This document shows positions 9,619-43,506 of a stretch of 64,000 nucleotides of DNA, piece after piece. A program made the translations under genes and the position numbers. Below the pieces are notes generated by a model. It did no database searches and was not told where the DNA came from. It worked only from the letters and a program-made list of their open reading frames with translations. Origin of the DNA: Narthecium ossifragum (lineage: Eukaryota > Streptophyta > Magnoliopsida > Dioscoreales > Nartheciaceae); assembly GCA_963920575.1 (NCBI GenBank), contig OY986975.1:1568650-1632649 (forward strand). Reading direction: 5' to 3'. Positions within the stretch are counted from its first letter, which is position 1. Every line of letters begins with the position of its first letter.

Positions 9619-11320
9619 CTACACTATCCCATCAATTCCGCTAGGTCCATCCCCACGGGCCCAGCTGAAAGTCGACGAGGTAATCCGACACCATTTCGCT
9701 AGAGCATCAACTCTCCCATTACAAGCCCTAGGAACATACAAAAACAAAGCATACTCAAAACCTCGTGAAACTGCCCAGACGGCCCTCACAATTGACGCCA
9801 CCTCCTCCGGCCACAGCCGCCCACCATTTAGGATGTCGACGGCTACCATACTATCAGATTCCACCACCACTTTTCTCCCACCCCTGGCAACGATCGTATG
9901 CACCGCCAGCAGGATCGCTTGTAGCTCCACATCAAGAACAGAGGACGCGGAGACCACCTTCCCCAACGCCCACCTCACCCCTCCATCATCCTCCAGCGCC
10001 ACTACACCGACCGCAGCCTCCCTCGTTTGCGGAAGCCACGACGCGTCCCCTTGAACCACAACAGCTCCATCCTCGCGAATACGCCGAGCTCCACCCAGCC
10101 GTCGCGGTAGATGAAGCTTCTCCTCCGCCAGCCGCCAAGCACGCCGCGCCACAATCGCCGCAGCCTCCCCACCCTCGCCAAATAGAAGCCTATTCCTATC
10201 CTTCCACACTTCCCACATCCCATAGGCTAGGTAGGACTTAAGCGTCCCGGCGCCCCGCGAGGAAACAGGGCACACCAACGCCAACCGCACCTCCTCTGGA
10301 CTCCAGGTCCTCTCCTCCCCACTCTGCCCAGCCACAATCTGGAGCACCTGCTGCGCAAACCTACACAGAACCAGAGCGTGGTCGATCGTTTCCTCCTCCA
10401 TACCGCACCTCGGGCACTCCCAGTCGGAGCACACCCTCGCACGCCATAGGAACCCTCTGACGGGAATCCTACCATGCCAAGCTTTCCAAATAAAATGTCT
10501 CACCCGCGGCGCCACCCTCAACCGCCCCAGGGATCTCCAGTCCTCACCGTTCGGCCGGCACATCTCCGGAAACCTTCTCAGCAGAACAGAGGAATACACA
10601 GACGCCGTAGTAACCAGACCTTTTGCATCCAGCGTCCATCGCCAGCGATCACCCTCCCTGCCCACAGCCATGGAACTCACCTCTGCCGCCACATCAGTGC
10701 CCAGCACCGCCCTCACCTTCTCCATCTGCCAAACGCCATCTACTATTAAGTCCCCCACAAGCATCCCTTCAGTGTCGCCATTCCCCGCAACCAACGCCGG
10801 TCGCCTCTCCAATGGCTCCTCCCAAACCCATGCGTCTTGGAGGACACTAACCTTGCTCTCCTTCCCCGGCGTCCACCTTAGACTAAACCGGAGTTCCCCA
10901 GCCGCCGCACAAAGATCCCTCCAATGAACAGAGGCCGATCTCGACGCCTTGGCCTGCGGCAACCACCCATTCCAACCATATTTGGCCCTCGCCACCAGCG
11001 ACCAAACAGAGTCCCCCTCCTTCAAGAGCGCTGCCATCCTCTTCGCCTTCAATGCCCTCTGCCAGACCTCCAAATTCCGTAGCCCTAGACCCCCCGCCTC
11101 AACCGGCGAGCACACCTTGTGCCAAGCTACAATACCAAAGCCCGAGTGTTTCCCATTCCAAAGAAAATCCCGGCATATCCTCTCAATCCGCCTAATCACC
11201 GAAGAAGGAACACGCGTAGTGGCCATCACAAATGCCGGTACAGCTTGAAGGACCGCCTTAATCAGCACCACCTTCCATGCTTCTGAAATATACTTCCCCT
11301 GCCACCGAAGAACATGGGCA
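9619..11320 (-). pseudogene. LINE ORF2 C-terminal part: RT end, zf-RVT, RNase H
   Basis: The frame is open over about 560 codons but has no start of its own. Upstream of the GTG at 11271 it continues in frame through RWQGKYISEA, the usual text before IKAVLQAVPAF in plant L1 elements, until a stop near 11,322. In order it has the end of the RT domain (RICRDFLWNG, GGLGLRNL), a zf-RVT region with CPRCGMEEETIDHALVLC, and a C-terminal RNase H. That RNase H still has its acidic residues: GDASW, ELQAI, ESDS and VDALA. The YADD catalytic centre of the RT lies in the deleted part, so the protein cannot reverse transcribe. Confidence 0.88.
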
Positions 11321-11324
11321 GCTT

Positions 11325-11902
11325 AACCGAATGGGTCTTGAGAGCGGGGGTGCTAACACAGTTCCTGGGGACGTTGCCGGCCGTTCACTGGACGACGCGC
11401 AAGTCTGGTGGCGTGAGGGCGGGGTCCACATTCAAGGCGGTGAGCGTGATGGAGGTGGTGACTGGAGGGGGAGTCGTTCCTACGCGGAGGCGGCGGCTGC
11501 TCTCAAGCCTAAGTCGTCCATTGTTACGCTGGAGGAGATGGCCAGGGTGGGTTCGCTGTATGCGGATGAAGTAGTTCTGGATGATGAACTGATGGCGGCT
11601 GGCCAGAAGCGTTGGGAGTTCGCGCTGTTTGGCAGGTTCCTGGGTGGATGGGTTTCGCTAGAAGTCCTAAAGCAGAGGTTGGCGAGTCTTTGGTGGACGG
11701 CTGATCGGTTCCAGGTGGTCGATACGACTAATGGTGTGTATGTTTTCCGGTTCACAAACTCAAGGGATATGCAATACGTTTTGACTGGAGGCCCCTGGGT
11801 GGTGAATGGTAGGCCGCTGGCGGTGATCCGGTGGGTGCCGGATTGTGTTCCCGATGAGTCTTTTTTTCGGAAGATTCAGGTTTGGGTAAGGTTGCCACAG
11901 AT
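11325..11902 (+). pseudogene. LINE ORF1 N-terminal part (DUF4283), inverted
   Basis: The plus-strand frame of about 190 residues contains SYAEAA and, further on, a DUF4283 core with FALFGRFLGG, RFTNSRDMQYVLTGGPW and IRWVPD. DUF4283 is found in ORF1 of plant L1 elements and in related retrotransposon gag-like proteins. The zinc knuckle that normally follows is missing because the frame stops at the insertion boundary. It faces the ORF2 remnant at the inversion junction (about 11,320-11,325). Confidence 0.82.
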
Positions 11903-11916
11903 TACCGATAGACTAG
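11903..11916. repeat. Target site duplication of LINE 1 (5' side)
   Basis: Exact copy of the 14-bp sequence at 9547-9560. Confidence 0.93.
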
Positions 11917-13349
11917 ATTAATCTATGGTTATTTCACTACCGATTGGAGACATGCTACATGACTATATACACAAATCACGACCCATGTTCTTTTACTCTT
12001 TTACTATTCAAGGGTTTTCTAATAGCCGGAATTTGGATATCCATCATTTTGCTTGCCTAACTCACCCCGACTGTCGCGCCCCGACCAGCGTAGGCCCAAC
12101 CGGGCCGGGCGACGCGAAGCGGAACCTAACCTATTGCGGAAATTTTGGCGATGTTTCCCTCTAATCGTAGTGGTTACCCTAACAGATCATATCATCCTGT
12201 ATTGACACAAATTACAAACTCAAGGACTGAAACCGATATAATATTATAGATCCTCAAACAGGGAAATTATACATTTATCACTCCCGTAGGAGATTATCTA
12301 TAACAAAAAAGGTGTAAAGCTGGAAGATCGCCACCTCTCAAGCACCGCCAGACGCCGCCACGCCACCAAACACCGGCCCGATAGGGGCGACCGAAGAAGA
12401 GCTAGCACCAACACTTGCAAAACGCAGCCAGGGTAGGAGTGAGCACTAAGCTCAGCAGGGACACTACACTACGACGCTCACAAGGGAGGGAACACAACAG
12501 TGTCGCCCTCGAGCAAGACTTGGGTGTGCAGCAAGGGTCCCATAACCCTTTGCCGATGTCCCTAGGCATATCCAACCATGGTCACCCCAAGGGACTGGGC
12601 CCATCCTGGATACACCTAGTGCGGGCAGGAACAGACACTGCCTGGGTGGGACCCCTCCGAAGGCCCCCAAGGACAAGAACCGACACCGGTTGCACCCACA
12701 ACATCTGGCTCGAGGCCGACATGACCTCTAAACATCGAACAACATGTATTCAGGTCAAACTAACCCTATCATCGAAAACGACTGAATACTACAAATCGAG
12801 TCCTGGACCAAGCTACCCGCAACGGTCCTAGAGCTAGATCCGGGCTACCCGAAAACCCCGGATAGGCAACGCCCTACACAGATGCAACTAGTGCACAACA
12901 CAATGCATGTATGAACATGCGCAGGATAAAGCAGATTAACATGCAACAGTATGTGATGATATACAATAGCAAGGTCTGGGCACGGCACCCTGCCGGCCCG
13001 GGGTGGTGAACAGATAAATAAGGTATAGGGACTGCTGCAGTGGTACCCCCACCAACTGCCAGCAGTCCACCACAGAACATGCACCGGGAAGCAGCCCCGC
13101 AAACAACAGCTCACATATATAACAGATAAAGCCCTCGGCGGACGCCAGCATGCAAGGCTAGGGAAAGCTGTAGGGCTACTCGCCCGTTTATTCTAAACAT
13201 CCCGGGAGTCATCACTTCCCCGGTTCACCACTGCCCCTATTATAGGGCTAACATGCTTAAACGTATATACCAGGTATAAAGCGATAAGAAAGACCGACAT
13301 ACCAAGCCCCGCGGGCAAAAACCATGAAAAACCCTCTCTGCTACTGAAG

Positions 13350-13632
13350 GATCGATCCTTCCCAACGAAAGGATCGATCTTTTAAGTAACAGTGAGCAGA
13401 AGATCGATTCTTCCTCCCAGGAAGATCGATCTTTCTCGAGACAGAGGGCACCCTTCGTGTCGCACAAAAAAAGATCGATCTTCCTCCCAGGAAGATCGAT
13501 CTTCTTCGCGACGAAGGGTAGCCTTGCTACCCAAGAATCGGGATCGATCTTCTCCAAGTAGGAGATAGATCCTTCATCGGGCGTAGCATGACCAACCCAG
13601 AGAGATCGATCCTCCCTCAAGAAGGATCGATC
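13350..13632. repeat. Paired-palindrome array, five GATCGATC pairs (solo LTR)
   Basis: First and second palindromes of the pairs start at 13350/13372, 13402/13424, 13473/13494, 13542/13564 and 13604/13625. Start-to-start spacing is 22, 22, 21, 22 and 21 bp. Single-base variants occur (GATCGATT at 13402, GATAGATC at 13564). Distances between pairs vary from 52 to 71 bp. Confidence 0.88.
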
Positions 13633-13970
13633 TCGATGGGTTCTCCGGCGTCCTTCCGGCGAGAAATATCGCCGGAAGAGACATCCAAACTCAACCAAAC
13701 TCTGGGATCTGATAGATCAAGATCCCACGAGTCCAAAACCGGTGAAAACACGAGGAACAAACATGCATATCAAGAGATCTAAGTAAAAGAACACAATCAA
13801 ACCGGAAACTCCAAAAACCCAGAATAAAAGTAGGTAAGAATCCCTATCGGAGAAAAAGCAGCTTAGATCCAAGCAGCTAGGCCTTGGATCGTCCTCAGAT
13901 GCCTTCAAAAATCGCGAGATCTGGGCTCAAATCTCTGGATTTCAAAAGGGATTCAAGGAAGAAGATCTCG

Positions 13971-13982
13971 TCTGCTTTATAG
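13971..13982 (-). promoter_or_regulatory. TATA-like box of the solo LTR
   Basis: The minus strand reads CTATAAAGCAGA. It lies just downstream (minus-strand sense) of the palindrome pairs at 14005-14102, the nearest being 22 bp away. Confidence 0.45.
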
Positions 13983-14004
13983 ACAAACGAACCGACTTAT
14001 GAAT

Positions 14005-14102
14005 GATCGATCCTTCCCTAGACAAGAATCGATCCTTCATGACGATCACACTTGACTTTCTGGCACGAAGAAGATCGATCTCTTAGCCAGAGAGGATCGA
14101 TC
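14005..14102. repeat. Two further GATCGATC pairs next to the LTR TATA box
   Basis: Pairs start at 14005/14027 (second copy AATCGATC) and 14073/14095, both 22 bp start to start. They lie immediately upstream of the minus-strand TATA-like box at 13971-13982. Confidence 0.88.
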
Positions 14103-14303
14103 CTTTTTGTGCTGAAAACTAAACTTAGACAAGAACTCAAGTCTAAGTCCGGATCTTTCGATCCCGGGTCGCACTAACCGTTCTAACCAAACATTACCAC
14201 AAATACGGTCAGTGTGTGCACACGCGGGTGTGAAATAAGCCGACAAGGCGCCTTGCGGTCTACGACGAACCAAAAGAATAGAGGGACGGGTCCTCACACC
14301 GAC

Positions 14304-18079: not shown

Positions 18080-18084
18080 TTCGT
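18080..18084. repeat. TTCGT target duplication (left) of the Athila-like element
   Basis: TTCGT at 18080-18084 is repeated at 29265-29269, immediately outside the two LTRs. Confidence 0.93.
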
Positions 18085-18253
18085 TGATAAGACGTGAAAA
18101 GTGCATAAATCACCCTTTTAACTTGGCCTTATTAGTCTCCGAGCAAGGCCTTACTGATGGATTTTACCCTATTACAGGTACAAGTGCCCTCAACGAGAAT
18201 TGGATCAAGTTCCGAGCTTAAACGATGTCATTCGGGCCAGTTTTTATGAAGAA

Positions 18254-18551
18254 GATCGATCCTGTATTGATGAAGGATCGATCCTTTGAAGTGCTTTAAG
18301 AAGGAGCCAATCAGGACAACAAGGATCGATCCTATGGCATGAGAGGATCGATCATTTTTGCGCATTTTCTCAGTGACAGAACGCAAGTTCTGAAGGATCG
18401 ATCTTCACCCTGGGAAGGATCGATCTTCATCGAGGCGCAGCCAGAATTCAAGAAGAAAAGATCGATCCTTTCCTATAGGAGGATCGATCCTTCACGGGAC
18501 CAGCGATCACACGAAGCGAATGATCGATCCTTCACCCTATGAGGATCGATC
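18254..18551. repeat. Paired-palindrome array in the 5' LTR, five pairs
   Basis: GATCGATC starts at 18254/18276, 18324/18346, 18396/18418, 18460/18482 and 18522/18544. All five pairs have exactly 22-bp start-to-start spacing, while distances between pairs vary (70, 72, 64 and 62 bp). The array ends 63 bp before the TATA box. Confidence 0.95.
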
Positions 18552-18613
18552 CTTTGGTGCCAGCCGAGCAAAATCAATGGCCCAGATCTAATCCGAGTGG
18601 GGAGGCTTGTTTA

Positions 18614-18623
18614 CTATAAATAG
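18614..18623 (+). promoter_or_regulatory. TATA box of the 5' LTR
   Basis: CTATAAATAG, the best TATA match in the LTR, is placed just downstream of the paired-palindrome array. U3-R organisation is inferred from it. Confidence 0.7.
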
Positions 18624-19666
18624 ACCCCTTAGGGGTGATTTGAGGGAATCTTCTCTTAGTTTTCTCCAGCCCTTCTAGGTTTCTTACCCAATTGAGAGGA
18701 GGACTTCTTGGAGGGAATCCATGGGAGGGGAGCTTCATCAACCTCCATCCATGGATCCAACCAAGATGAGTAGCTAACTTCCTATCTCTTGGGATTTCCA
18801 TGTAGTTGTAGGATTCTTTTGTAGTTTTCTTAGGGTTTTGATGTGTAATCTTTAGGGATTGATCTATTGTATGGTTTTGAGCATTATTTCTCTATCTTTG
18901 TACATGGATTTCATATGTTGAATGGATGAATGCCTTCCTTTGGTATGAGTTAGGACTTGTGCATGATAGGTGTTTATTGTTATGCCCCAATGAGTTGGAT
19001 GTGCTAGAAACACATCCAATGACATTGGGAGGATTACTAGCCCTAGATTAGAGATTAGGGATGCTAGAACCATCCCTATCTCTCTAATCAAAGGATCCAT
19101 TCTATCTTTCTCTTGCATTGGATTCGAGGTGCTAGAACCATCTCGATCCAATGCCCGACTCCATGCAATATCTTTTTCTTGCGACGAATCGATCTTAATC
19201 GAAGGTTCGTTAGCGACGATAGAAGCTAATCACTCATTCGTCGACTTTGTGAATGTGATTATTTCCGGCGGATGATCCTAACCCGACTTCCGTTGAGCGA
19301 TAAGTGAGGCTAATCACCCGCTTGTCGACTTCTTGATTTCGATCGTCCCGACTGGATTACACACCTCAATTCCTTAGGAGGCTACATTAGAACCTACAAT
19401 GAAATGGAGATCCCAAGACCTCTCTATATTAGTTTTATCTCTCTTCCCTTAGTTAATTACTTTAATAGTCATTAATCCAAAACCCAAATCATTTTAGCTA
19501 GTTGTTTGGAGTTATCTATCGAGTACGTTAGACAATTCTCATTTCCCTGCGGATCGACCCGGACTCCCACTAGCTATGTAGTAGTTAGTAGGATTCGGTA
19601 TAAATTGTAATCTTTGACGCCCTAGTCACTTTTAACGACGAGTGGTTTGGGTCCCGTCAAAGATTT

Positions 19667-19684
19667 TGGCGCCGTTGCCGGGGA
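19667..19684 (+). promoter_or_regulatory. Primer binding site, tRNA-Asp
   Basis: TGGCGCCGTTGCCGGGGA lies 7 nt after the LTR. It is the full 18-nt complement of the 3' end of plant tRNA-Asp(GUC) including CCA. This primer is characteristic of Athila/Tat-type Ty3/gypsy elements. Confidence 0.93.
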
Positions 19685-19920: not shown

Positions 19921-20850
19921 ATGAGTGTGCATGAGGATTCGGATTCCGATTTAGATATCACCTTGCAAGAATTCCTAGATTCTAGGACATCTTCAAGCAT
20001 ACCCTTGCATAAGGACCTCCCACTTCCTAAAGTCATGGATGCTCCCAACCCGGACCCCAATCCCAATGCCAATCCCATTCCGGACCGTAGGAGTATGAGG
20101 GATTATTATGTCCCTACTACTTTTGCACCTACATCGGGCATACAACAACCCGTTGTTCAAGCCGCACACTATGAGTTTAAGCCTCAATTCCTTCAATTCC
20201 TTCCAAACTTTCACGGCTTGAGTAATGAGGACCCTTACTATCACTTAGAAGACTTCCTCGAAAAGAGTTCCACGGTTAAAATTCCAAACTTTACCGAGGA
20301 TGCAATGAAATTAAAGTTGTTCTCATTTACCTTGAAGGGCAAAGCCAAGCATTGGTTAGGATCCCTTGAGCCCCAAACGATCACTACATGGGACCAATTA
20401 CAAAGTGCTTTTCTAGAAAAGTTCTTTCCTATCGCTAAGACTCATGAAATGAGGATCCAAATTGCGACCTTTCGTCAAGAAGATGACGAACCTTTTCATG
20501 ACGCTTGGGATAGGTTTAAAGAGCTTCTTAGGAAATGCCCACACCATCAAATCCCTAAATGGTCTCTTGTTGATTATTTTTACAATGGCCTTAGAATACG
20601 TCATCAACAAGACGTAGACACCGCTTGTGGAGGGGTGTTCATGACAAATCCCTACGAGGACTCATGAGTTTTATTTGGAAAGCTTGCCATTAATTTCCAA
20701 AACCATGCCTACACTTCAAGAAATGTTAGGGAGACTTCAAGTGCTAAGGGACAATCCAACCCGAGAGGATTTTTAGAGTTATCCGAAGCTACCCGTGTTT
20801 CACAACAAATCGATACTCTAAGTAGGAAAGTTGATCAAGATCTTGCTCAT
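19921..20850 (+). pseudogene. Athila-type gag, interrupted by a TGA
   Basis: The ATG at 19921 opens a 248-residue frame. After an acidic, proline- and asparagine-rich N-terminus it has a retrotransposon gag domain: FLPNFHGLSNEDPYYHLEDF at about residues 92-111, LKLFSFTLKGKAKHWL at about 130-145, and LEKFFP. The frame stops at TGA 20665-20667, then stays open in the same frame into the protease polypeptide. For about a dozen codons around the stop, the +1 frame gives the better gag text (HEFYLESL). This suggests two nearly compensating small indels rather than programmed readthrough. The missing bridge would break gag in this copy. Confidence 0.82.
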
Positions 20851-20853
20851 TCT

Positions 20854-23214
20854 TTGAATCAAATTCCTACTCTTCCTTGTTCATCGAGTTACTCCCTCAA
20901 TTCTCCATCATTGGGAGAACTTTGCTTCCTTTGTTCGACTCCCGACCACGTAGTTACCGATTGTCATTTGGCCGGTGAGTATCCGGAGCTCGTGCAAGAG
21001 CATATCAATGCGGTCTTCAATCAAGCAAAGACTACCTATGACCCTTATTCAAACACGTACAATGCTAGGCCTCCGATTTCGGGCAATCAAGCCCCAAGCT
21101 ATCCTCCTAGGTACCAAGCGCCATATCATTCTAATCCACCTCCACAAAATCAATCCACCTACCGGCCACCTCAAGCTCCTCATGCATATCCACCTCAAGC
21201 TCCTCATGCATATCCATCTCAAGTGCCAAGTTATCCTCAATCATCTCATCCGACAAATTGGAATCAAAGGCCACCTGGGCCTTCCTCATACCAAGCTCCC
21301 CATCAAGCTCCTCAAGTGCCTAAACGTGACCCTTGTATTGAGGAAAGGCTTCTCAAGGCCTTGGATTCCTTTGAGACAAGTACCCAACTTTTGCATTCTC
21401 ATTCCCAATCCATTGCAAAGTTGGAAGTGCAAATAGGCCAATTGGCCAATACTATGGCAAGAAGGGAGGAGGGTAGACTTCCTAGTCAACCCATAGCAAA
21501 CCCTAAGGGCCAACATTTTGTCGATTCCACTCACGAGGAAGTGCAAGCGGTTACTACCCTCCGGAGTGGAAAGATCTTTCCTAATGTTGAGATGCCTAAA
21601 GACACCACATTAGGGCAAGGACATGAACCTCATTTGTCTACTTCGATGAATGACTCTCAAGCATTACCTCCTCATGCTCCTCATGATTCTTCAAGTCAAT
21701 TGCCATCTTTCAAGGAAACTGAGCCTAGTCTACTCGATCCTTTACCAACCAAAGCTTACATTCCTAAGGCTCCATACCCTCAAGCATTAGTTGATCCTCA
21801 AGCTACATCTCAACCTTGGAAGGTGGGCAAGTATGAGGAGATGCTAGAACTTTTCAAGAAAGTTCACATCAACCTTCCCTTGTTGGACGCCATCAAGCAA
21901 GTGCCTTCTTACGCCAAATTTTTGAAAGACTTGTGCACCCATAAGAGGCAATCCAAATCTCACGTCTCCAAAAAGCTCTTCCTAACTGAGCAAGTTAGCT
22001 CTATTCTTCAACTCGATCTACCTCCGAAATTGAGAGACCCCGGCACTCCTATCATCTCTTGCATCATAGGAGATCAATTGATTGAGGGGGCTCTTCTTGA
22101 TTTAGGAGCTAGTGTGAATCTCATGCCCTACTCCTTGTTTTGTAAGTTTGGCTTAGGAGAGCTCAAGCCGACCTCGATGACTTTGCAATTGGCCGATAGA
22201 TCTCTCAAAACACCACGGGGTGTTCTTGAGGACATATTAGTCAAGGTCGATCGATGTGTTTTTCCGATCGATTTTGTTGTCTTAGACATGGAGCCCGGAC
22301 CAAGGCATAAACAGTCCATTCCCATCATTCTAGGTCGACCATTCCTTGCCACAGCCAACGCTTTAATAAATTGTAGGAATGGAGTCATGACCGTGACATT
22401 TGGCAACATGGAGATACGGCTTAACATTTTTGATGCATCTAAGCATTATGCAGGTGAAAAAGAATGTTTTATGATTGATGTTTGGAATGATCATCATGAT
22501 GAGGAATACTTGATTGAGTTACTTGGTGATGATGAAGGGGTTGATGATGATTGTTATGATATTAATCTTCCAGTATATCAACCATTTTATGAAGACATAC
22601 CTAATTATGAAGAGGATGCTTGTGATATCAATATGCCGGTCTATGAAGTTTTTAGTGAGGATATATCAATTTTCAGGGACTCCTATGAGGTTAATATGCC
22701 TATCTATGAGGTGTTTTGGGAGGACATAACTAAGGTTGATGAGCCAAGTGTGGTTGTTTTCCAAGAAAGGTTATCAATCCCTCATGATTGTGATGATGAA
22801 GGCCAATATATGTTGCCGGCTTTAGAGACTTTTGAAATTTTGGATGAGGTCTTGCCCATTCTTAAATGTGATTATATAGGCAATGATTGTGCTACTCCTT
22901 GGTGGAGACATGATTTTGATTTGTCGCCTTCTATATCTTCCTCCACAATAATATTTGCCACCACACTATCATTGCTCATCTTGAATGCCACCCCATTTCC
23001 CACGTTCATGCATACATTCATTCGGCCTTATAAAACCGTTAATAAAAAGCGTGACACCTTTTGTGCTAAAATGGACATAAAGTTAAAATGGCTTGTGATG
23101 AAAGAAATGTGGTTTTATCATTGGCATTTAAGTAAAATTCTTCGAAAATGGCTTCGATCTCGCATTTCTAGATGCGACCACCATTTAGAGGGGACATCGA
23201 AATTTTATGGGTGA
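20854..23214 (+). CDS. Athila-type gag C-terminus plus aspartic protease; no RT follows
   Basis: The frame has 786 codons and probably continues the gag frame above, since there is no convincing start of its own. Near its start is a zinc knuckle CFLCSTPDHVVTDC (CX2CX4HX4C, from about 20,931). A Pro/Gln/Tyr-rich stretch with a duplicated APHAYPPQ-type unit follows (about 21,165-21,230). The retropepsin domain has the active site DLGAS at 22099-22113 and IILGRPFLATANA. In autonomous relatives an RT domain comes next. Here it is replaced by an acidic tail with three repeats of the DIN.PVYE.F.EDI type (about 22,557-22,725), a hydrophobic segment (near 22,945-22,995) and a basic end. The tail resembles nothing I know. 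Confidence 0.85.
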   Translation: MNQIPTLPCSSSYSLNSPSLGELCFLCSTPDHVVTDCHLAGEYPELVQEHINAVFNQAKTTYDPYSNTYNARPPISGNQAPSYPPRYQAPYHSNPPPQNQSTYRPPQAPHAYPPQAPHAYPSQVPSYPQSSHPTNWNQRPPGPSSYQAPHQAPQVPKRDPCIEERLLKALDSFETSTQLLHSHSQSIAKLEVQIGQLANTMARREEGRLPSQPIANPKGQHFVDSTHEEVQAVTTLRSGKIFPNVEMPKDTTLGQGHEPHLSTSMNDSQALPPHAPHDSSSQLPSFKETEPSLLDPLPTKAYIPKAPYPQALVDPQATSQPWKVGKYEEMLELFKKVHINLPLLDAIKQVPSYAKFLKDLCTHKRQSKSHVSKKLFLTEQVSSILQLDLPPKLRDPGTPIISCIIGDQLIEGALLDLGASVNLMPYSLFCKFGLGELKPTSMTLQLADRSLKTPRGVLEDILVKVDRCVFPIDFVVLDMEPGPRHKQSIPIILGRPFLATANALINCRNGVMTVTFGNMEIRLNIFDASKHYAGEKECFMIDVWNDHHDEEYLIELLGDDEGVDDDCYDINLPVYQPFYEDIPNYEEDACDINMPVYEVFSEDISIFRDSYEVNMPIYEVFWEDITKVDEPSVVVFQERLSIPHDCDDEGQYMLPALETFEILDEVLPILKCDYIGNDCATPWWRHDFDLSPSISSSTIIFATTLSLLILNATPFPTFMHTFIRPYKTVNKKRDTFCAKMDIKLKWLVMKEMWFYHWHLSKILRKWLRSRISRCDHHLEGTSKFYG

Positions 23215-23559: not shown

Positions 23560-24045
23560 GATCGATCCTCCAAGAGGAGAGGATCGATCCTTTATGTCCG
23601 ATTGATTTTACGCTGGAACCTGGAGGCGAGAGATCGATCCTTCCATACCCCATGATCGATCATTTTTGCGAATTAATTCGTGACAGGGGATTGGTTTTGA
23701 GAAGATCGATCCCTCAATCCCTCATGATCGATCATTTTTGCGAATTTATTCGTGACAGGGGACTGGTATTGAGAATATCGATCCTTCCATCTCTAAGGAT
23801 CGATCATTTGTGCGAATTTATTCGTGACAGAGGGATGATTTCTGGATGATCGATCCTTGATCATAGAAAGATCGATCATACCTACTTATACACGTCAGCA
23901 CGACTTAAGTGAGAACCGTTATGATGCTGCCACGTGTTCAAAAGATCGATCTTTTGCTGTCAGGAGATCGATCTTTTGCGGGGTTGGTTAAAAAAATATA
24001 TAGGCGCGGGAGATCGACTTAGGGCCCCAAGCCCTAAGATCGATC
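23560..24045. repeat. Paired-palindrome array inside the Athila-like element, seven pairs
   Basis: Starts are 23560/23582, 23632/23654, 23704/23726, 23776/23798 (first copy TATCGATC), 23848/23870, 23944/23966 and 24012/24038. The first six are exactly 22 bp apart; the last is 26 bp and is the pair with the longest inner complementarity (CTTAGGG against CCCTAAG). Three pairs share the downstream text 'atttttgcg/atttgtgcg ... gtgacag' with the LTR array, so the two arrays are related by descent. Confidence 0.92.
23997..24002 (+). promoter_or_regulatory. TATA-like box upstream of the env-position ORF
   Basis: TATATA after an A-run lies 24 bp downstream of the sixth palindrome pair and about 470 bp before the ATG at 24468. 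The arrangement copies that of the LTR (array then TATA), so an internal promoter for the downstream ORF is plausible but unproven. Confidence 0.35.
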
Positions 24046-24467: not shown

Positions 24468-25850
24468 ATGGTTCGCAAGCACACCGCCGCCATCAAGAAG
24501 GCCGCCGGGAAGGGCAAGGCTGCGGCATCCTCTCCATCTTCCTCTCCAGCCGAGCAAGCTTCTTCCACACCATCTTCGCAACCGGCATCCTCTCCATCTT
24601 CCTCTGGGCCGGCCGCTGATTCATCTTCTCCTCCTACACGGCCGGTCCGTGCCACTTCGTCCACAGCTCCGGCAGCTTCCAAGAGGAAAGCCTCCGCTGC
24701 CCCTGTGTCATCCAATCCTCTCCGATCCAAAAAGTTGAAGAAGCCCAAGCCCTCCACTGCGCCCACTGATGTTCGAGGCCTAGATCCGCAGTGGCGACGG
24801 GAGGTAAAACTCGAGTACACCTTTGACGTCTCCTTCTTCAGCACGATCGAGCATGCGCAGGATTCCGTCGCCACACTGGAAGCCCGCGGCTGGCTGCCCT
24901 TCTGCACCCCCTCCACCACTGTTTACCCAAGGCTGGCCTGCATGTTCTACCAGAACATGAAGGCTATTCCCTGCGGTAATGAGAGGGACGAGGCTGGTGA
25001 TGCCCCGAGCCGGGCCTTGGGCTTCACTTCGATCATTGACGGCGAGGATATCACATTCACTGCTCGGGACGTGGCTGCCCTCTTGGGTGTCCCTCGCCAC
25101 TCCCCTGGTTTCCACCGAGCCACCCTTGAGGAGCTGCCTCGTGAGGTTGATGCCCAGCTGTTTCTCCACCCAGATCGCACAGGAGAGGCCAAATTTGTGC
25201 GGGCAGAGCTGCCCCCTCAGATGTGGTTGATCGACGATATCTTCCGCCGAAACATTTACCAAACCGGCCACGCCCAGTATAGGACTGGCAAGTGGTTGTG
25301 TTCACTATGGTTTTTGGCTAAGTCGTGGTCGATCGACTTGGCCCAGCAGGTCGTCGAGGACATGTTCCAGTTTTATTGTGGAGCGGTTCGGGACCGATCG
25401 GACAGTTTTAACGATAAACCCGTCCCGCACCCCTGCCTTATTTCGGCTTTTCTCACTAGCCAGGACCTAGTCCCGGAGGGTGAGCCTACTGTCTCGGACG
25501 CTGCCTTCAGGTTTGCCCGCTTCGGTAAGGCCACCTGGGCCAAGGTCCTTAGCCATATGAGGAGAGCCGGCCATCCTCGTCCTCAGCCGAGACCCAGTAG
25601 GACCCAGTCGACCCCAGAGTTCGGACCTGTAGAGCACCCTACCATGGGTGAGATCTATAGGGAGCATCGGGCATTCCAGGACGTGGTGTTGCAGAGGTTG
25701 GACGCGGTAGACGCGCGCATCGGCGCCCTACACCAGGTCACGTCGAGTATCCTCACCCGTCTCGACGCCATCCACCCTCCTCCTCCACCTGTCACAGATC
25801 TCGCTTCTTCCCATCCGTTTACTTGTTCAGAGCAGAGACCTCAGGGATGA
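24468..25850 (+). CDS. Env-position ORF, putative plant transposon protein domain
   Basis: The frame from the ATG at 24468 has 460 residues. The N-terminal ~100 residues are rich in Ser, Pro, Ala and Lys (SSPSSSPAEQ; KRKASAAP; KKLKKPKP) and could act as a nuclear targeting or disordered tail. The middle part (about residues 120-370) contains RGWLPFC, FTARDVAALLGVP and LCSLWFLAKSWSIDLAQQVV. These match the 'putative plant transposon protein' domain found downstream of pol in Athila-type elements. The C-terminus has a helical stretch (about residues 390-440) and a Pro run. No signal peptide or clear transmembrane helix is visible, so an envelope function is not supported. Its biochemical role is unknown. 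The frame is intact, in contrast to gag. Confidence 0.75.
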   Translation: MVRKHTAAIKKAAGKGKAAASSPSSSPAEQASSTPSSQPASSPSSSGPAADSSSPPTRPVRATSSTAPAASKRKASAAPVSSNPLRSKKLKKPKPSTAPTDVRGLDPQWRREVKLEYTFDVSFFSTIEHAQDSVATLEARGWLPFCTPSTTVYPRLACMFYQNMKAIPCGNERDEAGDAPSRALGFTSIIDGEDITFTARDVAALLGVPRHSPGFHRATLEELPREVDAQLFLHPDRTGEAKFVRAELPPQMWLIDDIFRRNIYQTGHAQYRTGKWLCSLWFLAKSWSIDLAQQVVEDMFQFYCGAVRDRSDSFNDKPVPHPCLISAFLTSQDLVPEGEPTVSDAAFRFARFGKATWAKVLSHMRRAGHPRPQPRPSRTQSTPEFGPVEHPTMGEIYREHRAFQDVVLQRLDAVDARIGALHQVTSSILTRLDAIHPPPPPVTDLASSHPFTCSEQRPQG

Positions 25851-27680
25851 TAGACTGTATCTAGGGGTATTCTGTATTTTCGGGATGGTTAGAGTGGATC
25901 TCTTTTTGTGTTTGGAGGGTAGGTAACTTTTTGTACTCCATTGCTCCACTTTTGTATATGGTTAACATCATTGATAGTGGATATATATATACATGATTTT
26001 TGGCGGTGGGGGTGTGCCCCGGGTGTGTGTGTGTATGTGTGGATGTGGCTATGTAACTGATAAAGATGGATGGATGGATGCTTGTAAATGATGGTTGGAT
26101 GTAGTTACATTTCTGTATTTTCATTTTGAATGAATGTATAAATTGTTGGATGCAAATGGCATCTTTGTACAACCCTTGGGCGTATTGAATAAATAGAGGG
26201 AATGCTGCCCAATTTTTCTCAAAATTTGTCATATCTATTCTTTGATTTCCATAATGCTATGGTGGGTATTTCCTCTATGTTTTTGCAGGGCATACGAGCT
26301 ATGGATAGCAACACAAAATACGACATTTTGACATCACAATAATACGGTTTTTCACGACTAACCTTGACTCTAATTCCTGTCATATCTTTCGTCAAGGTTA
26401 CATTTTCGTCCATTTCGTCACAAGGTTATCTCTACACTCTACCCTTCTTCCGTGCTTGAGGACAAACCCGCTTAAGTTAGGGGGTATGATTGCATCATGT
26501 TTATAGATAACCTGTGATCGATCTACAGTTAGTCACACGTTTATTTGATTGGTAAATATGTGAAAAATTTTCAACTCTTATGCTAGCATGGATGACTATT
26601 GCATAATTCATCTTGATTCCCATGCTTTGTAAAATTTAGCGAATCATTTCATGAGTAGTGTTATTCTTCTACTTTAATTCTTCTTGTCATGCATTAAGGA
26701 CATTTAAGTGATCCAATCCACTTGTGCACTTACACTTGTATGAGGGGGCAAGTAGTTTTGATTGGGGGACCTTGATAAATTGGGAGTCCAAGGCTATTTA
26801 CACTCGATTGAGATGACTTGTAGTAGGGTTCGAAGCCAAGTTAGAGGCCGAGAGTCAGGTTAATAAAAGTGACTAGTCGTGATTCGTAGCCTTCTAGGCT
26901 CGAGTAGTTAGATCTGAGGGGTGCTTCAACACCTAATGCCCCAAAGCCATCTGGCGTGGGAGTCATTGATCTAACACTCGTTAAATGGGCCTAGTAGAAA
27001 GCTTAAGGGATCAAGGCATTGCACGGTCACGCTAGTATCAATTAAAAGCTTGTTGGTCAGCTGTGATTCGTGGCCTGCTAGGTTCGGGAAATTAAGCTCG
27101 AGGGGTGCCTCAACACCTAGTGCCCTTAGGTCATCTGACCAAGGAGTCACTGGCCTAAATCCTGTTACATGGACCTAGTAGAAAGCCTAAGGGATCATGG
27201 CATTGCACGACCACTGGTTTAGTTAGAAAAAAAAAAAGAAAAGAAAAGAAAGAAGAACAAAGATTTTACTTTAAATAAAACTTGTCATTTGTTCAACCGG
27301 TGTAAAGCACTAAGGATGTCTAGTTTTGATGGGAACCCTACTTGAATGACTACGAGACCCCGAATACTTGAGTAGCAACTTTCACTACACGGATTACTTA
27401 GATGAGCTTTAATCTTGTTCAAGTGCTTTGAAGTGTTTGAATGATGCTATTGATGGAATTATTCACTTGCATTTTACTCGTGCTATGGGATGATGGATGG
27501 AGCTATGCATTTGAATCTATGTGTGCATATGAATGAATTTTGATCGTATAAGAACCAAAGCTTTATGAGAAGTGGCTAATTGTTGATCGGGGGATTGCTC
27601 TTTTTGAGTTTCTTATTTCTTCTCTTTCCCTTCAAGTTATTTTTCTTTTGCTTTGCTCGAGGACTAGCAAAGTTCAAATT
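25851..27680 (+). other. 3' untranslated region of the retrotransposon
   Basis: Non-coding. Short tggatgga repeats lie near 26,065-26,080 and an AAAAGA-rich stretch near 27,225-27,255. A ~170-bp unit is duplicated at about 26,878-27,040 and 27,058-27,215; both copies contain 'ggggtgc', 'tcaacacctaa/tag' and 'ggcattgcacg'. Such repeats near the 3' end are common in this lineage. Confidence 0.65.
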
Positions 27681-27688: not shown

Positions 27689-29264
27689 TGATAAGACGTG
27701 AAAAGTGCATAAATCACCCTTTTAACTTGGCCTTGTTAGTCTCCGAGCAAGGCCTTACTGATGGATTTTACCCTATTACAGGTACAAGTGCCCTCAACGA
27801 GGATTGGATCAAGTTCCGAGCTTAAACGATGTCATTCGGGCCAGTTTTTATGAAGAAGATCGATCCTGTATTGATGAAGGATCGATCCTTTGAAGTGCTT
27901 TAAGAAGGAGCCAATCAGGACAACAAGGATCGATCCTATGGCATGAGAGGATCGATCATTTTTGCGCATTTTCTCAGTGACATAACGCAAGTTCTGAAGG
28001 ATCGATCTTCACCCTGGGAAGGATCAATCTTCATCGGGGCGCAGCCAGAATTCAAGAAGAAAAGATCGATCCTTTCCTATAGGAGGATCGATCCTTCACG
28101 GGACCAGCGATCACACGAAGCGAATGATCGATCCTTCACCCTATGAGGATCGATCCTTTGGTGCCAGCCGAGCAAAATCAATGGCCCAGATCTAATCCGA
28201 GTGGGGGAGGCTTGTTTACTATAAATAGACCCCTTAGGGGGGATTTGAGGGAATCTTCTCTTAGTTTTCTCCAGCCCTTCTAGGTTTTTTACCCAATTGA
28301 GAGGAGGACTTCTTGGAGGGAATCCATGGGAGGGGAGCTTCATCAACCTCCATCCATGGATCCAACCAAGATGAGTAGCTAACTTCCTATCTCTTGGGAT
28401 TTCCATGTAGTTGTAGGATTCTTTTGTAGTTTTCTTAGGATTTTGATGTGTAATCTTTAGGGATTGATCTATTGTATGGTTTTGAGCATTATTTCTCTAT
28501 CTTTGTACATGGATTTCATATGTTGAATGGATAAATGCCTTCCTTTGGTATGAGTTAGGACTTGTGCATGATAGGTGTTTGTTGTTATGCCCCAATGAGT
28601 TGGATGTGCTAGAAACACATCCAATGACATTGGGAGGATTACTAGCCCTAGATTAGAGATTAGGGATGCTAGAACCATCCCTATCTCTCTAATCAAAGGA
28701 TCCATTCTATCTTTCTCTTGCATTGGATTCGAGGTGCTAGAACCATCTCGATCCAATGCCCGACTCCATGCAATATCTTTTTCTTGCGACGAATCGATCT
28801 TAATCGAAGGTTCGTTAGCGACGATAGAAGCTAATCACTCATTCGTCGACTTTGTGAATGTGATTATTTCCGGCAGATGATCCTAACCCGACTTCTGTTG
28901 AGCGATAAGTGAGGCTAATCACCCGCTTGTCGACTTCTTGATTTCGATCGTCCCGACTGGATTACACACCTCAATTCCTTAGGAGGCTACATTAGAACCT
29001 ACAATGAAATGGAGATCCCAAGACCTCTCTATATTAGTTTTATCTCTCTTCCCTTAGTTAATTACTTTAATAGTCATTAATCCAAAACCCAAATCATTTT
29101 AGCTAGTTGTTTGGAGTTATCTATCGAGTACGTTAGGCAATTCTCATTTCCCTGGGGATCGACCCGGACTCCCACTAGTTACGTAGTAGTTAGTAGGATT
29201 CGGTATAAATTGTAATCTTTGACGCCCTAGTCACTTTTAACGACGAGTGGTTTGGGTCCCGTCA
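27689..29264 (+). repeat. 3' LTR, 1,576 bp
   Basis: Copy of 18085-19659. Palindrome pairs run from 27858 to 28155 at the same spacings; one palindrome (28022) has become GATCAATC. TATA box at 28219-28228. Most of the ~16 differences from the 5' LTR are transitions. Confidence 0.95.
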
Positions 29265-29269
29265 TTCGT
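29265..29269. repeat. TTCGT target duplication (right) of the Athila-like element
   Basis: Matches 18080-18084. Confidence 0.93.
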
Positions 29270-30839: not shown

Positions 30840-33110
30840 CAAGACTTATTTTCCACGGTAGTTACTTTCCACAACAGTTACCTCCACCGTAGCTACTTTT
30901 CACGATAGTTACTTTTCCATAAATAATATGTGAAAAACTCAGCGACAATAATGAAAAATATGGTAGTTAATTTTCAATTTATAGTTACTTTCCAATTGGT
31001 ATTAAAATATTGAAAAATATTGTGAAAAATATTTATAGTTTCCTTTCAATTTTGTAGTTACTTTTCAGTTTTTTTTTCAATTTTTATGGGGGAATATCTC
31101 TTTTTAAATATTTTTAGTTACTTTCCAATTGGTAGTTAAAATATTGGAAAATATTGTGTAAAATATTTGTAGTTACTTTTCAATATTTGTAATTACTTTC
31201 CATTTTTTTTTCAATTTTTGTGGGGTGATGTCACTTTCAAATATTGTGAAAAATTTGGAAGTAACTTTTCATTTTGTAGTTACTTTTCAATTTGTAGTTA
31301 AAATATTATAAAATATTATGAATAATATGGAAGTTACTTTTCAATTTGTAGTTACTTTTAAATTTGTTGTTAAATATTGAAAAATATTATGTAAAATATT
31401 TGTAGTTACTTTTCAATATTTGTAGGGGAATTCACTTTTCAATATTTGTAATTAATTTTCAATATTTGTAGTTACTTTCCAATATTTATAGTCACTTTTC
31501 AATTTTGGGGAAATATGTGCAAAAATCAGCTAAAATAAAGTTGGTAGTTAATTTTCAATATTTGTAGTTACTTTCCAATATTTGTAGTCACTTTTCAATT
31601 TTGGGGAAATATGTGCAAAAATAACCTAAAAAAATACTGGTAGTTATTTTTCAAATTTTTTCAATTTTTATGGGGGAAATTCACTTTCCAATATTTGTAG
31701 TTACTTTTCAATATTTGTAATTACTTTTCAAGTTTTTTCAATTTTTGTTGAAGAGTAATTTGGTGGAAAATAGCTTATAAGATGGTGGTTACTTTTCAAT
31801 ATTTGTAGTTACTTTTCAATATTGGGAAAAATACGGTAGTTACTTTTCACAAATAAGAGCTGAAAAATATTGGGGGACCCTCCTTCACGGTAGTTACTTT
31901 TCAAAAAAAAGTAGGGTTGACTTAAGTGGTAGTAACCTAAAAAAATACTGGTAGTTACTTTTCAATTTTTTCCAATTTTGTGGAGGAAATTCACTTTCTA
32001 ATATTTGTAGTTACTTTTCAATATTTGTAATTACTTTTCAAGTTTTTTCAATTTTAATTTGGTGGAAAATAGCTTATAAGATGGTGGTTACTTTTCAATA
32101 TTTGTAGTTGCTTTCCAATATTTGTAGTCACTGTTCATTAATTTTCAGAAAATATGTGCAAAAATCAGCTCAAAAAATGCTGGTAGTAACTTTTCACTAT
32201 AAGGAAAATATGGTAGTTACTTTTCAATATTGAGATGGTGGTTACTTTTCAATATTTGTAGTTACTTTTGAATATTGGAAAAATACGCTAGTCACTTTCC
32301 ATAGATAATAGCTGAAAAATATGGTAGTTACTTTTCAATATTAATATGGTAGTTACTTTTCAATATTAAGATGGTGGTTATTTTTAAATATTTGTAGTTA
32401 CTTTTGAATATTGGGAAAAATACGTTAGTCACTTTCCACAGATAAATAGCTGAAAAATATTGGTAGTTACTTTTCAATATTAATATGGTAGTTTCTTTTC
32501 AATATTAAGATGGTGGTTACTTTTCAATATTTGTAGTTACTTTTCAATATTGGGAAAAATACGCTAGTCACTTTCCACATATAAATAGCTGAAAAATATT
32601 GGTAGTTATTTTTCAATATTTGTAGACACTTTTCAGAATTTCTAATTACATTCCAAAATTCGTAGTCACTTTTCAATTTTTGGAAATTTTTTGCAAAAAT
32701 CAGCTACCAGAATGTTGGTAGTTACTTTTCAATATATGTAGTTACTTTCCAATATTTATGGTCACTTTTCAATTTGGGAAAATACGTGTAAAAATAATTA
32801 AAAAATACAGGTAGTTACTTTTCAATATTTGTTGTTATTTTTCGGTATTTTTAATTACATTCCAATATTCGTAGTCACTTTTCAATTTTGAGAAAATATG
32901 TGCAAAAATCAGCTAAAATAATGCTGGTAGTTACTTTTCAATATTTGTAGTTACTTTTCAATAGTTCGAGTCACTTTTCAATTATGAGAAAATATGTGCA
33001 AAATTAAGCAAAAAAATGTTGGTAGTTACTTTTCAATATTGAGAAAATATGGTAGTTACTTTTCAATATTGAGAAAATATGGTAGTTAATTTTCAATTTG
33101 AAAAAATATG
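30840..33110. repeat. AT-rich degenerate minisatellite, about 2.3 kb
   Basis: The motif TAGTTACTTTTCAATATTTG and variants (TTCC for TTTC, AAT for AGT, GTCAC for GTTAC) recur throughout in one direction. They are interspersed with 'gggaaaatatgtgcaaaaatcagc' type text split across copies. Spacing is irregular, with 20-22-bp steps combined into larger blocks (for example around 32,215-32,580). No open frame. Confidence 0.85.
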
Positions 33111-33650
33111 ATAGGTACTTCTCAATTTTCCAAAGAGTTTGAACAACAGCTATCCTACCATTTTTCCTAACTTGGTTTTTCCTATTTTCATCATTTTCCC
33201 CTGTTTACCCTGCCCTTTTTCATATTTGGATTTTTCCAATATAAAATCCAAGCTCCATCCCGACATTGCCGTCCCCACTCGCCGTCCCGATCTCGCCTTT
33301 GAGGTCCACCATCAAAAGAAATTAAGCTGAGTTGTAGAGATTGAGATGAGCGTATCTTTCTGTGTTCATCTTGATGCTGTCATTGAATGTTGCTAAGCAT
33401 CCTTCAGGTTCACATCATAGAACTTACAATCCTCAAACTCGCCGCAAGAGTCCAAAAAAAACAGGGTAAAAAAAAGAAGAGAAAAAACCGCTGGCGAATA
33501 AGTACTTTAGGCACGTCGTATTTTATCACGTTAAAATCCATTTGTAATGTTGCGGTTTTCTGCAGACAAAACAAAGAAAAGAATTAAAGTTAATTTCATA
33601 AAGATAACAAATAGTTCAAATCATCATCAGTAAAAACAGGTTCACATCCG

Positions 33651-35870: not shown

Positions 35871-36220
35871 GATCGATCCGAACAAACCTCGGATCGATCC
35901 GAACAAACCTCGAATCGATCCGAAGTTCAGAGCTTCCATTTCATGTAAGAATTGGATTAATTCAGGCTTCAAAGTTGTCGGCCTTCATAGGCTTCGGATC
36001 GATCCGGACTTTTGTCGGATGGATCCGAAGGCAAAATATGGGATTTGAGCTCCCTGAATCTCTGCAAACTGATCGATCCGAGCTTTAGCTGGATAGATCC
36101 AAATCACCTGGGTTGAGCTCCCACATCCTGGATCAATCCAGACATACCTCGGATATATCCAAACCTTGCTAAACTTGAACTTCTAAGCCCGGATCGATCC
36201 AAACCTTTCCTGGATCAATC
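35871..36220. repeat. Paired-palindrome array with 21-bp spacing
   Basis: Starts are 35871/35892/35913 (a triplet), 35997/36018, 36071/36092, 36131/36152 and 36192/36213. All adjacent members are exactly 21 bp apart. Several palindromes extend to CGGATCGATCCG. Later pairs are decayed (GATGGATC, GATAGATC, GATCAATC, GATATATC) yet keep the spacing. Confidence 0.9.
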
Positions 36221-39355: not shown

Positions 39356-39370
39356 AATTACAAAAGATAG

Positions 39371-39846
39371 TTACTTCTTAACAAATTTCCGCCATTCATA
39401 CCAAGAAGAAACGACTCCCATGATCGAATAGTTTCCTCGGTGAGCCATTGGAAGGTATAAGCAAAAGTTCTCTCACTAAACCAGCAACAATCAAGTTATC
39501 AAGTATCACGAGTCCCAATTTTAAGGTCTTCAATGTCCTCCCAAAAGCTTTGATCTTCTAAACGCCATAAGATCACTGTCTGACCAATAACATAATGAGC
39601 ATATCTTCAGCTGTGCTTGCCATCCCAATCAATTTCACTTATGGTTCCTGAACAACAATTTCATACACGAAACGAAATTATCAAGGTTACAAATCATTTC
39701 AGACCAAAAGTACTCAACTTTGTGATTTCAACAAAATTGACCAAAAGGGGAAGATATCTCTACATATCTACATATATACTAGCAAGATTACTTACCAACT
39801 ATAGCACATTTGAACTCCACAGAGACAAACAAAGAGCAAGAAATGA
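39371..39846. repeat. Copy 2 of the resistance-gene 3' flank, right part, and 3' UTR
   Basis: Continues 36,827-37,214 beyond the LINE and matches 48,790-49,230 behind resistance gene 2. Parts nearest the coding region probably represent the 3' UTR of resistance gene 1. Confidence 0.7.
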
Positions 39847-40182
39847 TCATCGTTTTAAATTGGTGTCGAAGGCGAAGGGAGCCTTGGTGTATGAGAAATA
39901 GGCTGATCCATCGTAGGTCTTGGCTTTAACTTGAGGGATGTCTCTGATCTTGGGCCACTCCGGGCCATCCTCAAGACACTTGGAGAGTAGGTCAACACTG
40001 CCGTGAATATTCAGCTTCTGCAGACCACCGAACTGCTGCTGCTGCATTTCTCCTCCTGCTACACTAGTACTAGCACTGCTGCTTGCTAATAACCATTCTG
40101 GCAGGGACTCTATTTCATCTAGGTCAAGCAATTCCAGCTGCTGCAGAGCATCCATACCCACCACAATCCTCAGGTTTCTCCA
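39847..40182 (-). pseudogene. Out-of-frame C-terminal tail of resistance gene 1
   Basis: This frame encodes the last ~105 residues found in frame in gene 2, including ESLPEWLLASSSA, a Gln run and DGPEWPKIRDIPQVKAKTYD. In gene 1 a net loss of 5 nt between about 40183 and 40196 puts it out of frame. The GPEWPKI.DIP block is conserved at the C-terminus of many CC-NBS-LRR proteins of this type. Confidence 0.88.
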
Positions 40183-43100: not shown

Positions 43101-43266
43101 TCTGCCTCCTCTCGGCATCGACGAGCAGGTCACGTATCAAGCTTAGCTTTCTTTGAAGCTTCTCGATCTCGCCCGGCACACCGAGGAGCATGACAGCCTC
43201 GTTCTCGGCATATTTTAGCAGCACATCGGTGAACTTGGAGACGTACTCACTCGGGATCATTGCCAT
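40124..43266 (-). CDS. CC-NBS-LRR disease resistance protein (gene 1), truncated C-terminus
   Basis: Two exons: 43266-42946 (107 codons from MAMIPSEY) and 42784-40124, with a 161-bp intron (donor CTA/GTATGT, acceptor TGGCAG/GTAAAC). Predicted protein 993 residues. Exon 1 is an Rx-type coiled coil with WLNELKDLMYDADDIMDEIE. The NB-ARC domain has P-loop GMGGIGKTT (about residues 209-217), kinase-2 FLVLDDVWD, GSRLLITTRS, CDGLPLAINA, CFLYFALYPKD and an MHD-like IHDLV. LRRs follow (LRILDLSYSPLEELPSSIG and others). These cytoplasmic or membrane-associated receptors bind ATP/ADP and trigger effector immunity; the ligand is unknown. A 5-nt loss near 40,190 replaces the last ~105 residues with about 20 unrelated ones. 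It may still work or may be decaying. Confidence 0.85.
42785..42945 (-). other. Intron of resistance gene 1, 161 bp
   Basis: Consensus GTATGT donor and TGGCAG acceptor on the minus strand. Position and phase 0 are identical to the intron of gene 2 (146 bp). Confidence 0.85.
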
Positions 43267-43283
43267 AACTCCGACTTGGAACA

Positions 43284-43382
43284 AAACTGAGAAGAAACAG
43301 AAGAAGATGGTTGCCGAAACTGAGAAGAAACAGAAGAAGATGGTTGCCGAAACTGAGAAGAAACAGAAGAAGATGGCTGCCG
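43284..43382. repeat. 33-bp triplication in the 5' leader of resistance gene 1
   Basis: Units at 43284-43316, 43317-43349 and 43350-43382 are identical except for one base in the third ('ggctgccg'). Gene 2 has a single diverged copy of the unit at the same place (about 52,693-52,725). Confidence 0.93.
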
Positions 43383-43506
43383 ATGAAGATGGAGTTGAAG
43401 ACGAAGAGAGTGTTCCAAGAGTAGCACAAGCTGGTTCAGCTGTAACAAAGAGATCAGAAAGGAATCCATAATAATTGCTAAGGAGGACCAAATAATTACG
43501 TGTCAT

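Follow-up and report, generated by a model that had tools for sequence, protein, structure and literature searches.

Why should a long terminal repeat (LTR) carry self-complementary octamers in pairs, with every pair at the same spacing? The question is raised by an LTR in the window (the whole 64-kb stretch of DNA analysed here), in which GATCGATC starts at 18254/18276, 18324/18346, 18396/18418, 18460/18482, and 18522/18544; all five pairs measure 22 bp from start to start, just as a sequence-only reading had claimed, and the steps from pair to pair are 70, 72, 64, and 62 bp. The 3′ LTR of the same element keeps all five pair spacings; one of its sites, GATCAATC, is without its central CpG. 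The array in the 5′ LTR is raised in CpG, with an observed/expected ratio of 1.10 versus 0.71 in the remaining LTR. Here, F1 denotes the element bearing this array, F2 a solo LTR of a different family, and F3 a further array; altogether, five arrays are present in the window (Table 1).

Chance as the origin of the pairs is excluded. The window contains 49 copies of GATCGATC where shuffling predicts 1.05, a number reached in none of 100 shuffles, and 19 exact pairs with a gap of 12–15 bp, against none in 100 shuffles. Throughout the home genome (an assembly of 379,400,290 bp) pairs at 20–24 bp (gap 12–16) number 74,557, against 12 for the reversed, uncomplemented pattern that served as control, and pairs at exactly 22 bp (gap 14) number 33,313 against 3, counts which include many copies per family and are not independent events. 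On either side of this class, 3,548 pairs lie at 13–19 bp (gap 5–11; control 25) and 4,491 at 25–31 bp (gap 17–23; control 50), which leaves 90% of the exact pairs within 13–31 bp to the 20–24 bp class. The pairs are unevenly spread, because a sample of 200 kb near contig ends (20 stretches of 10 kb each, taken at 0.5 and 1.5 Mb of contigs C1–C10, including some N) holds eight octamers and no pair at 20–24 bp where an even spread predicts about 39. The comparison with controls which the sequence-only reading had proposed thus came out in its favor, in shuffles of the window as well as with the reversed pattern in the genome; as to its two refuting conditions, the shuffles and the 200-kb sample near contig ends are devoid of such pairs, and other copies and families keep a spacing of two helical turns. 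Its description of “five pairs in an LTR” is true for the F1 LTR but too narrow, since the layout occurs genome-wide and also precedes an internal open reading frame (ORF).

Table 1. Features of the window that bear on the paired palindromes (positions are those of the window)
Feature	Position	Strand	Remark
F2 solo LTR	12072..14298	-	target-site duplication (TSD) CCGAC at 12067–12071 and 14299–14303
F2 array, seven pairs	13350..14102	-	22 bp in five, 21 bp in two; one site changed in three
F2 TATAAAGC	13981	-	31 bp from nearest site
F1 TSD TTCGT, left copy	18080..18084	.	direct reading
F1 5′ LTR, TGATAAG...CCCGTCA, of a probably non-autonomous Ty3/gypsy element (Athila-like)	18085..19659	+	self-BLAST, ends, TSD
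F1 array of five GATCGATC pairs	18254..18551	+	in 5′ LTR
F1 TATA box TATAAATA	18615..18622	+	71 bp after start of last site
F1 primer-binding-site-like TGGCGCCGTTGCCGGGGA	19667..19684	+	TGGCGCCGTTGCC present in L037 too
F1 gag (PF03732)	19921..20664	+	E=3.5e-24
F1 ORF with aspartyl-protease match (PF13650)	20668..23211	+	23.1 bits, slightly under the cut-off of 24.3
F1 internal array, six 22-bp pairs	23560..24045	+	one pair with one changed site; extra site at 24038
F1 TATA-like TATATAGG	23997..24004	+	31 bp after start of last paired site
F1 accessory ORF, 460 aa, Transposase_32 (PF20167)	24468..25850	+	one basic cluster
F1 3′ LTR	27689..29264	+	self-BLAST, ends
F1 3′ LTR array, same five pairs	27858..28155	+	one site is GATCAATC
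F1 TSD TTCGT, right copy	29265..29269	.	direct reading
F3 TATA-like GATAAATA	35805	-	73 bp from nearest site by hand count
F3 array, CGGATCGATCCG type, six neighboring pairs at 21 bp	35871..36220	-	several sites changed

The two LTRs of F1 are 98.9% identical by self-BLAST. Between them lies an Athila-like set of features, i.e., gag, protease (just below the cut-off), and a sense 3′ accessory ORF with a PF20167 match. The ORFs tested contain no match to reverse transcriptase (RT) or integrase domains and F1 is, therefore, probably a non-autonomous element. The PF20167 match covers residues 139–330 of the accessory ORF product, which has no membrane-type hydrophobic segment (the highest 19-residue Kyte-Doolittle mean is 0.77); no relatives turned up in a protein search at E 0.001 and only weak matches in a search of solved structures (best E 0.61), and an unaligned structure prediction was uninformative (pLDDT 45). 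The lone site at the end of the internal array starts 41 bp downstream of the TATA-like TATATAGG. A 148-bp direct duplication (80%) lies at 26879–27209, past the accessory ORF and ahead of the 3′ LTR.

Elsewhere in the window, LINE-type fragments occupy 9622–11918, with zf-RVT and RVT_3 on the minus strand and DUF4283 on the plus strand; some 2.2 kb of degenerate AT-rich tandem repeats, with units like GTAGTTACTTTTCAATATTTG and periods of, for example, 20, 25, 96, 139, and 209 bp, are found at 30925–33129; and a segment of 4.2 kb is present twice (39367–43530 and 48787–52880, 84% identity), with minus-strand ORFs of 912 and 1000 aa.

The spacing of the sites follows rules at two levels. In 21 arrays, read with sites of at most one mismatch and from families sampled for the most part within the initial 2.1 Mb of contig C1, 149 distances between neighboring sites were obtained; 89 of these are 19–24 bp, with a mode of 22 bp (55 cases). 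The remaining 60 comprise 49 distances of 39–51 bp, eight of 53–84 bp, two of 30 bp, and one of 16 bp, and cluster at 39–42 bp (12/60) and 48–51 bp (32/60), as if linker sizes differed by about one helical turn. The gaps between pairs had been described as varying from 62 to 72 bp in the F1 LTR; the steps do differ, but across the 21 arrays they are not free. The core is GATCGATC in F1 and F2, whereas most F3 sites are CGGATCGATCCG or close to it. Symmetry extends beyond the core: flanking positions 1 and 2 are mirror-symmetric in 107 and 120 of 170 sites, respectively, compared with about 53 and 63 in across-array shuffles, and none of 3000 across-array permutations reached the observed values. 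Shuffling within arrays showed no excess, the flanking bases being array-specific (AT..AT, GA..TC, TG..CA, CC..GG, AG..CT); around a common core they create 12-bp palindromes such as ATGATCGATCAT, GAGATCGATCTC, TGGATCGATCCA, CCGATCGATCGG, and AGGATCGATCCT.

A third regularity is the distance to the promoter. In ten promoters read directly, several of which are related, the nearest site starts 71–73 bp ahead of a TATA-type box in seven related cases and 31 bp ahead of one in three others. To the former belong the F1 LTR with site starts at −71/−93/−133/−155, the array loci L031 and L034 (−71/−93/−134/−156), L032 (−73/−94/−135/−156), L037 (−71/−94/−143), and L041 (−73/−95/−145), as well as F3, where a site start was placed by hand count at −73 from the TATA-like GATAAATA. 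In the 3′ LTR of F1 the nearest site is at −72, owing to one inserted base. The latter comprise L033 (−31/−53/−99/−121), F2 (−31/−99/−121, the site at −53 being changed), which has five further pairs downstream of its TATA, and the TATA-like box before the F1 accessory ORF (−31/−53/−127/−149). Further TATA-type matches lie off the rule, at 112/134 in L033 and, on the minus strand, at 129/151 in L041; at five array loci (L029, L030, L035, L036, and L040), for some of which the stretch was short, the scan yielded no TATA-type match.

How far these promoters are independent of each other can be judged from the sequences around the sites. F1, L031, L032, L034, L037, and L041 have blocks at the LTR ends and an upstream GATCTAATCCGAG block in common, which is why these “class-1” promoters are regarded as one lineage; by direct reading, F3 has the upstream block, too. 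Outside the sites and the TATA box, ungapped class-1 promoters match at 21–44% of positions (71% for L031/L034). A conserved GATCTAATCCGAG-like block lies between the last palindrome and TATA at 18580–18600 of the window and in L031, L032, L034, L037, and L041, and is perhaps a second promoter element. F2, with termini that we take to be chromovirus-like, and L033 are 82.5% alike over 1.2 kb and are, judged by LTR sequence and TATA type, a second lineage. Locally, array stretches of one lineage match those of the other (for instance, F1 LTR versus L033, 181 bp, 70%, E 1e-12), so that the arrays may have come by exchange or common descent; likewise, given the shared blocks and local matches, the arrays and their common distance to TATA may be inherited or exchanged, not convergent. 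An independent origin of all families was, consequently, dropped.

One host outside the window is informative with regard to classification. L037 (C1:88001–98000) covers the greater part of a Ty3/gypsy element, whose ORFs encode gag-protease and RT-RNase H-integrase; RT (151–306) precedes integrase (676–769) within one ORF, which we take to be the Ty3 order. Its octamers are confined to its two LTR regions, the second of which is cut by the end of the stretch, its primer-binding-site motif is the same as that of F1, and its two long ORFs tested have no PF20167 match. At least two LTR lineages have the arrays in their promoters, and one of these lineages is shown to be Ty3/gypsy.

What could be the function of such an arrangement? 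Sites, spacing, TATA positions in ten promoters, abundance, occurrence in at least two lineages, and palindromic flanks are all observed; together they point to activator boxes. In this reading, which we consider probable, the octamer plus two flanking bases is a predicted protein-binding palindrome, the pair a unit presented on one face of the DNA, and the array an activator placed before TATA. Each GATCGATC-centered 12-bp palindrome would be bound by a protein dimer, and two such palindromes, 20–23 bp or about two helical turns apart and hence on roughly the same face, would be bound as a dimer of dimers. Stacked upstream of TATA at set distances, these units would drive transcription from the LTR and, in F1, also from the promoter of the accessory ORF. 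The dimeric DNA-binding factor which had been suggested for the locus fits best among the readings considered, with binding and dimerization both deduced from the layout. Methylation at the central CpG could plausibly serve as an off switch: C>T or G>A at this CpG accounts for 9 of 32 core changes (a site in two pairs being counted twice), which fits methylation of the sites but is no proof of it. It may even be that one pair grammar, consisting of GATCGATC, two-turn pairs, set steps, and a set TATA distance, is common to much of the plant's retrotransposon population and is read, in the manner of lock and key, by related dimer-of-dimer proteins, encoded by host or element, which tell the flanks apart and thereby activate or protect each family on its own; we regard this extension as unlikely.

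Alternatively, the pairs might be stem-loops, of RNA or cruciform DNA, which act by structure, for example as sources of small RNAs or as signals in the transcript; a small-RNA hairpin had been among the initial suggestions. We deem this improbable. The F1 arrays do fold well below plain shuffles (z −8.65 for the LTR array, −8.49 for the internal array), but each octamer is self-complementary by itself, for which reason the sites and two bases were kept fixed in further controls. Against these, the pairs of the F1 LTR do no better than expected (mean z +0.48), while the values for F1 internal, F3, and F2 are −0.82, −1.03, and −2.28 (seven pairs in F2), respectively; all 24 pairs of the window together give −1.03 (expected 0, standard error 0.20), and the pair at 23560 folds below all 200 of its controls. 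Swapping arms within families in the four window arrays revealed no inner excess (P 0.30–0.74), and the outer excess was weak (P 0.03 to 0.39; gapped, P 0.002–0.08); over the 21 arrays (89 pairs), the two arms of a pair complement each other better than do arms exchanged among the pairs of one array (z 3.57 and P 0.0004 for inner arms, z 2.42 and P 0.012 for outer arms), all P values being uncorrected for the several tests of symmetry and folding conducted. Arms facing the linkers have no excess complementarity (46 linkers). The pairs, thus, are modestly dyad-symmetric in their own right; this is most evident in F2 and absent from the F1 LTR, and the activator model does not need it. Among 104 pairs from 23 arrays (counting also the 3′ LTR and another L034 array), 21 have the core changed at one site and two at both; none of the 104 pairs is compensatory, with only those two pairs being informative. 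Furthermore, the promoters read have their arrays ahead of TATA, with the exception of the five downstream pairs of F2. Small RNAs are drawn to the palindromes of maize Sireviruses, as far as the source covers it (PMC10760457), which would suit a structural role. The hairpin as the main role in the F1 LTR was rejected on the site-keeping folds and the lack of compensatory changes; what survives of it, by virtue of the pooled folding and the weak pair symmetry, is a minor rival.

A further possibility is that the reader is encoded by the element itself: a VANC-like nuclear protein, perhaps that with the PF20167 match, would bind the arrays of the LTR and of its own promoter and counter silencing. 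We would bet firmly against it, despite some attractive points. The F1 accessory ORF has its own upstream array and TATA-like box, and its product combines a basic cluster with the lack of a membrane-type segment; for a PF20167 ORF of sunflower Athila a nuclear signal is predicted (PMC11728184, as excerpted), and VANC proteins read dense short non-coding motifs (PMC5735166, likewise). Opposed to it are the other copies of the gene. A genome search for PF20167 yielded 1028 candidates, of which 150 were scored and all 150 matched; in about 0.9 kb upstream of eight chosen copies, seven are free of arrays and one, L045 (C12:8282230–8283130), has catGGATCGATCGcgg-like sites at irregular distances, in contrast to the pairs of the other arrays. 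This weakens the PF20167 protein as a general reader, as does L037, where LTR arrays are present and the match is absent from the two long ORFs tested; the structure model of the F1 protein adds nothing to it. Least of all do we credit passive spread, that is, neutral tandem duplication of a pair-bearing unit amplified only along with its elements: the internal array of F1 indeed consists of 72-bp tandem units (3.2 copies, 86% matches), one linker of the F1 LTR is homologous to three internal linkers, and the genome counts take in many copies of amplified families, but pair spacing and TATA distance are fixed though most class-1 families match at so few positions elsewhere, spacers differ between pairs in sequence and hardly in length, and the two-level spacing recurs with different flanks.

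That a single layout of paired palindromes recurs about 75,000 times in 379 Mb suggests a common regulatory input, which may act on many retrotransposons of this plant, and the question of how these elements are activated becomes experimentally direct.

Among known systems, the plant GATC motif YVGATCBR is related at the level of the core. It is read by GATA factors, acts mainly downstream of the start site, and its copies are additive, according to the portion of the report at hand (PMC11525189). A GATC core and many copies in arrays are common to both, but the consensus is matched by none of 21 GATC in the F1 LTR, none of 27 in the F1 internal array, and one of 34 in F2, and was rejected for these; in F3 it is matched by 12 of 15, and there it was not. 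VANDALs, in turn, are not counted among LTR retrotransposons, and a VANC-type system features an encoded protein that binds the motif and strips methylation. Their VANC anti-silencing system relies on dense short non-coding motifs which evolved by tandem duplication into family-specific variants, and the VANC21 motifs have a single orientation and are rare outside one family, as described in the sections of the two papers used (PMC5735166, PMC10398659). Dense short motifs in the non-coding DNA of mobile elements are, to that extent, a shared trait; here, the GATCGATC core is common to at least two lineages and the motif is not family-specific.

With respect to the element itself, F1 resembles sunflower Athila, for which the available part of the source gives a sense 3′ ORF with PF20167 at 133–312 of 487 residues and a predicted nuclear signal (PMC11728184): in F1, gag-protease is likewise followed by a sense PF20167 accessory ORF with a basic, nuclear-type signal. 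It differs from it in that its tested ORFs are without recognizable RT or integrase and that the accessory ORF is preceded by a GATCGATC array and a TATA-like box. Neither the accessory ORFs of Retand (PMC11963269) nor the LTRs of wheat centromeric elements (PMC11302176) offered a closer match in the parts of these reports consulted. In the open-licence literature, to which the search was confined (subscription papers being outside its scope), no report of such pairs was found, nor a paper containing two of four of the 12-mer palindromes, or one of them together with “retrotransposon”.

The closest relatives are found in Sireviruses. As laid out in the excerpts of PMC2829016 on which this comparison draws, the LTRs of these Ty1/copia elements contain palindromic “repeated motif” boxes upstream of TATA, at least eight per box-bearing element; extra boxes precede a 3′ ENV-like gene where it is present and are absent where it is absent; and the boxes are family-specific palindromes, with a CGG-CCG core in all but one element, and CpG islands are present there. 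The initial claim that no LTR element of this form had been described was, hence, too strong. The authors called such boxes Sirevirus-specific (PMC2829016, same excerpts). The likeness extends to several traits: the 5′ LTR of F1 has ten sites and, therefore, at least eight; the boxes are clustered before TATA, 31 or 71–73 bp from it in ten promoters which are not all independent, with some loci lacking a TATA match; the palindromes are family-specific; and CpG is raised in the F1 array, reminiscent of the CpG islands in the portion of PMC2829016 used. As to extra boxes before a 3′ gene, the picture is mixed: F1, with an array before its 3′ ORF, and L037, with arrays restricted to the LTRs, agree with the Sirevirus pattern, and seven of eight other PF20167 ORFs, being array-free, do not. 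Unlike Sirevirus boxes, most families here have GATCGATC and not CGG-CCG as the core, and the hosts are Ty3/gypsy elements, as the PF03732 gag of F1 and the RT before integrase in L037 indicate, not Ty1/copia; because core sequence and element superfamily differ, the arrays are no Sirevirus boxes proper. Also, the pairs are mostly at 20–23 bp, and a fixed pair spacing is not among the properties of the Sirevirus boxes given in those excerpts (PMC2829016). Palindromic boxes in Ty3/gypsy elements, where they obey a measurable rule of spacing and stand at a set distance from TATA, suggest convergence or exchange; most likely, the arrays are a Ty3/gypsy counterpart of the “repeated motifs” known from Sireviruses, but more strictly spaced.
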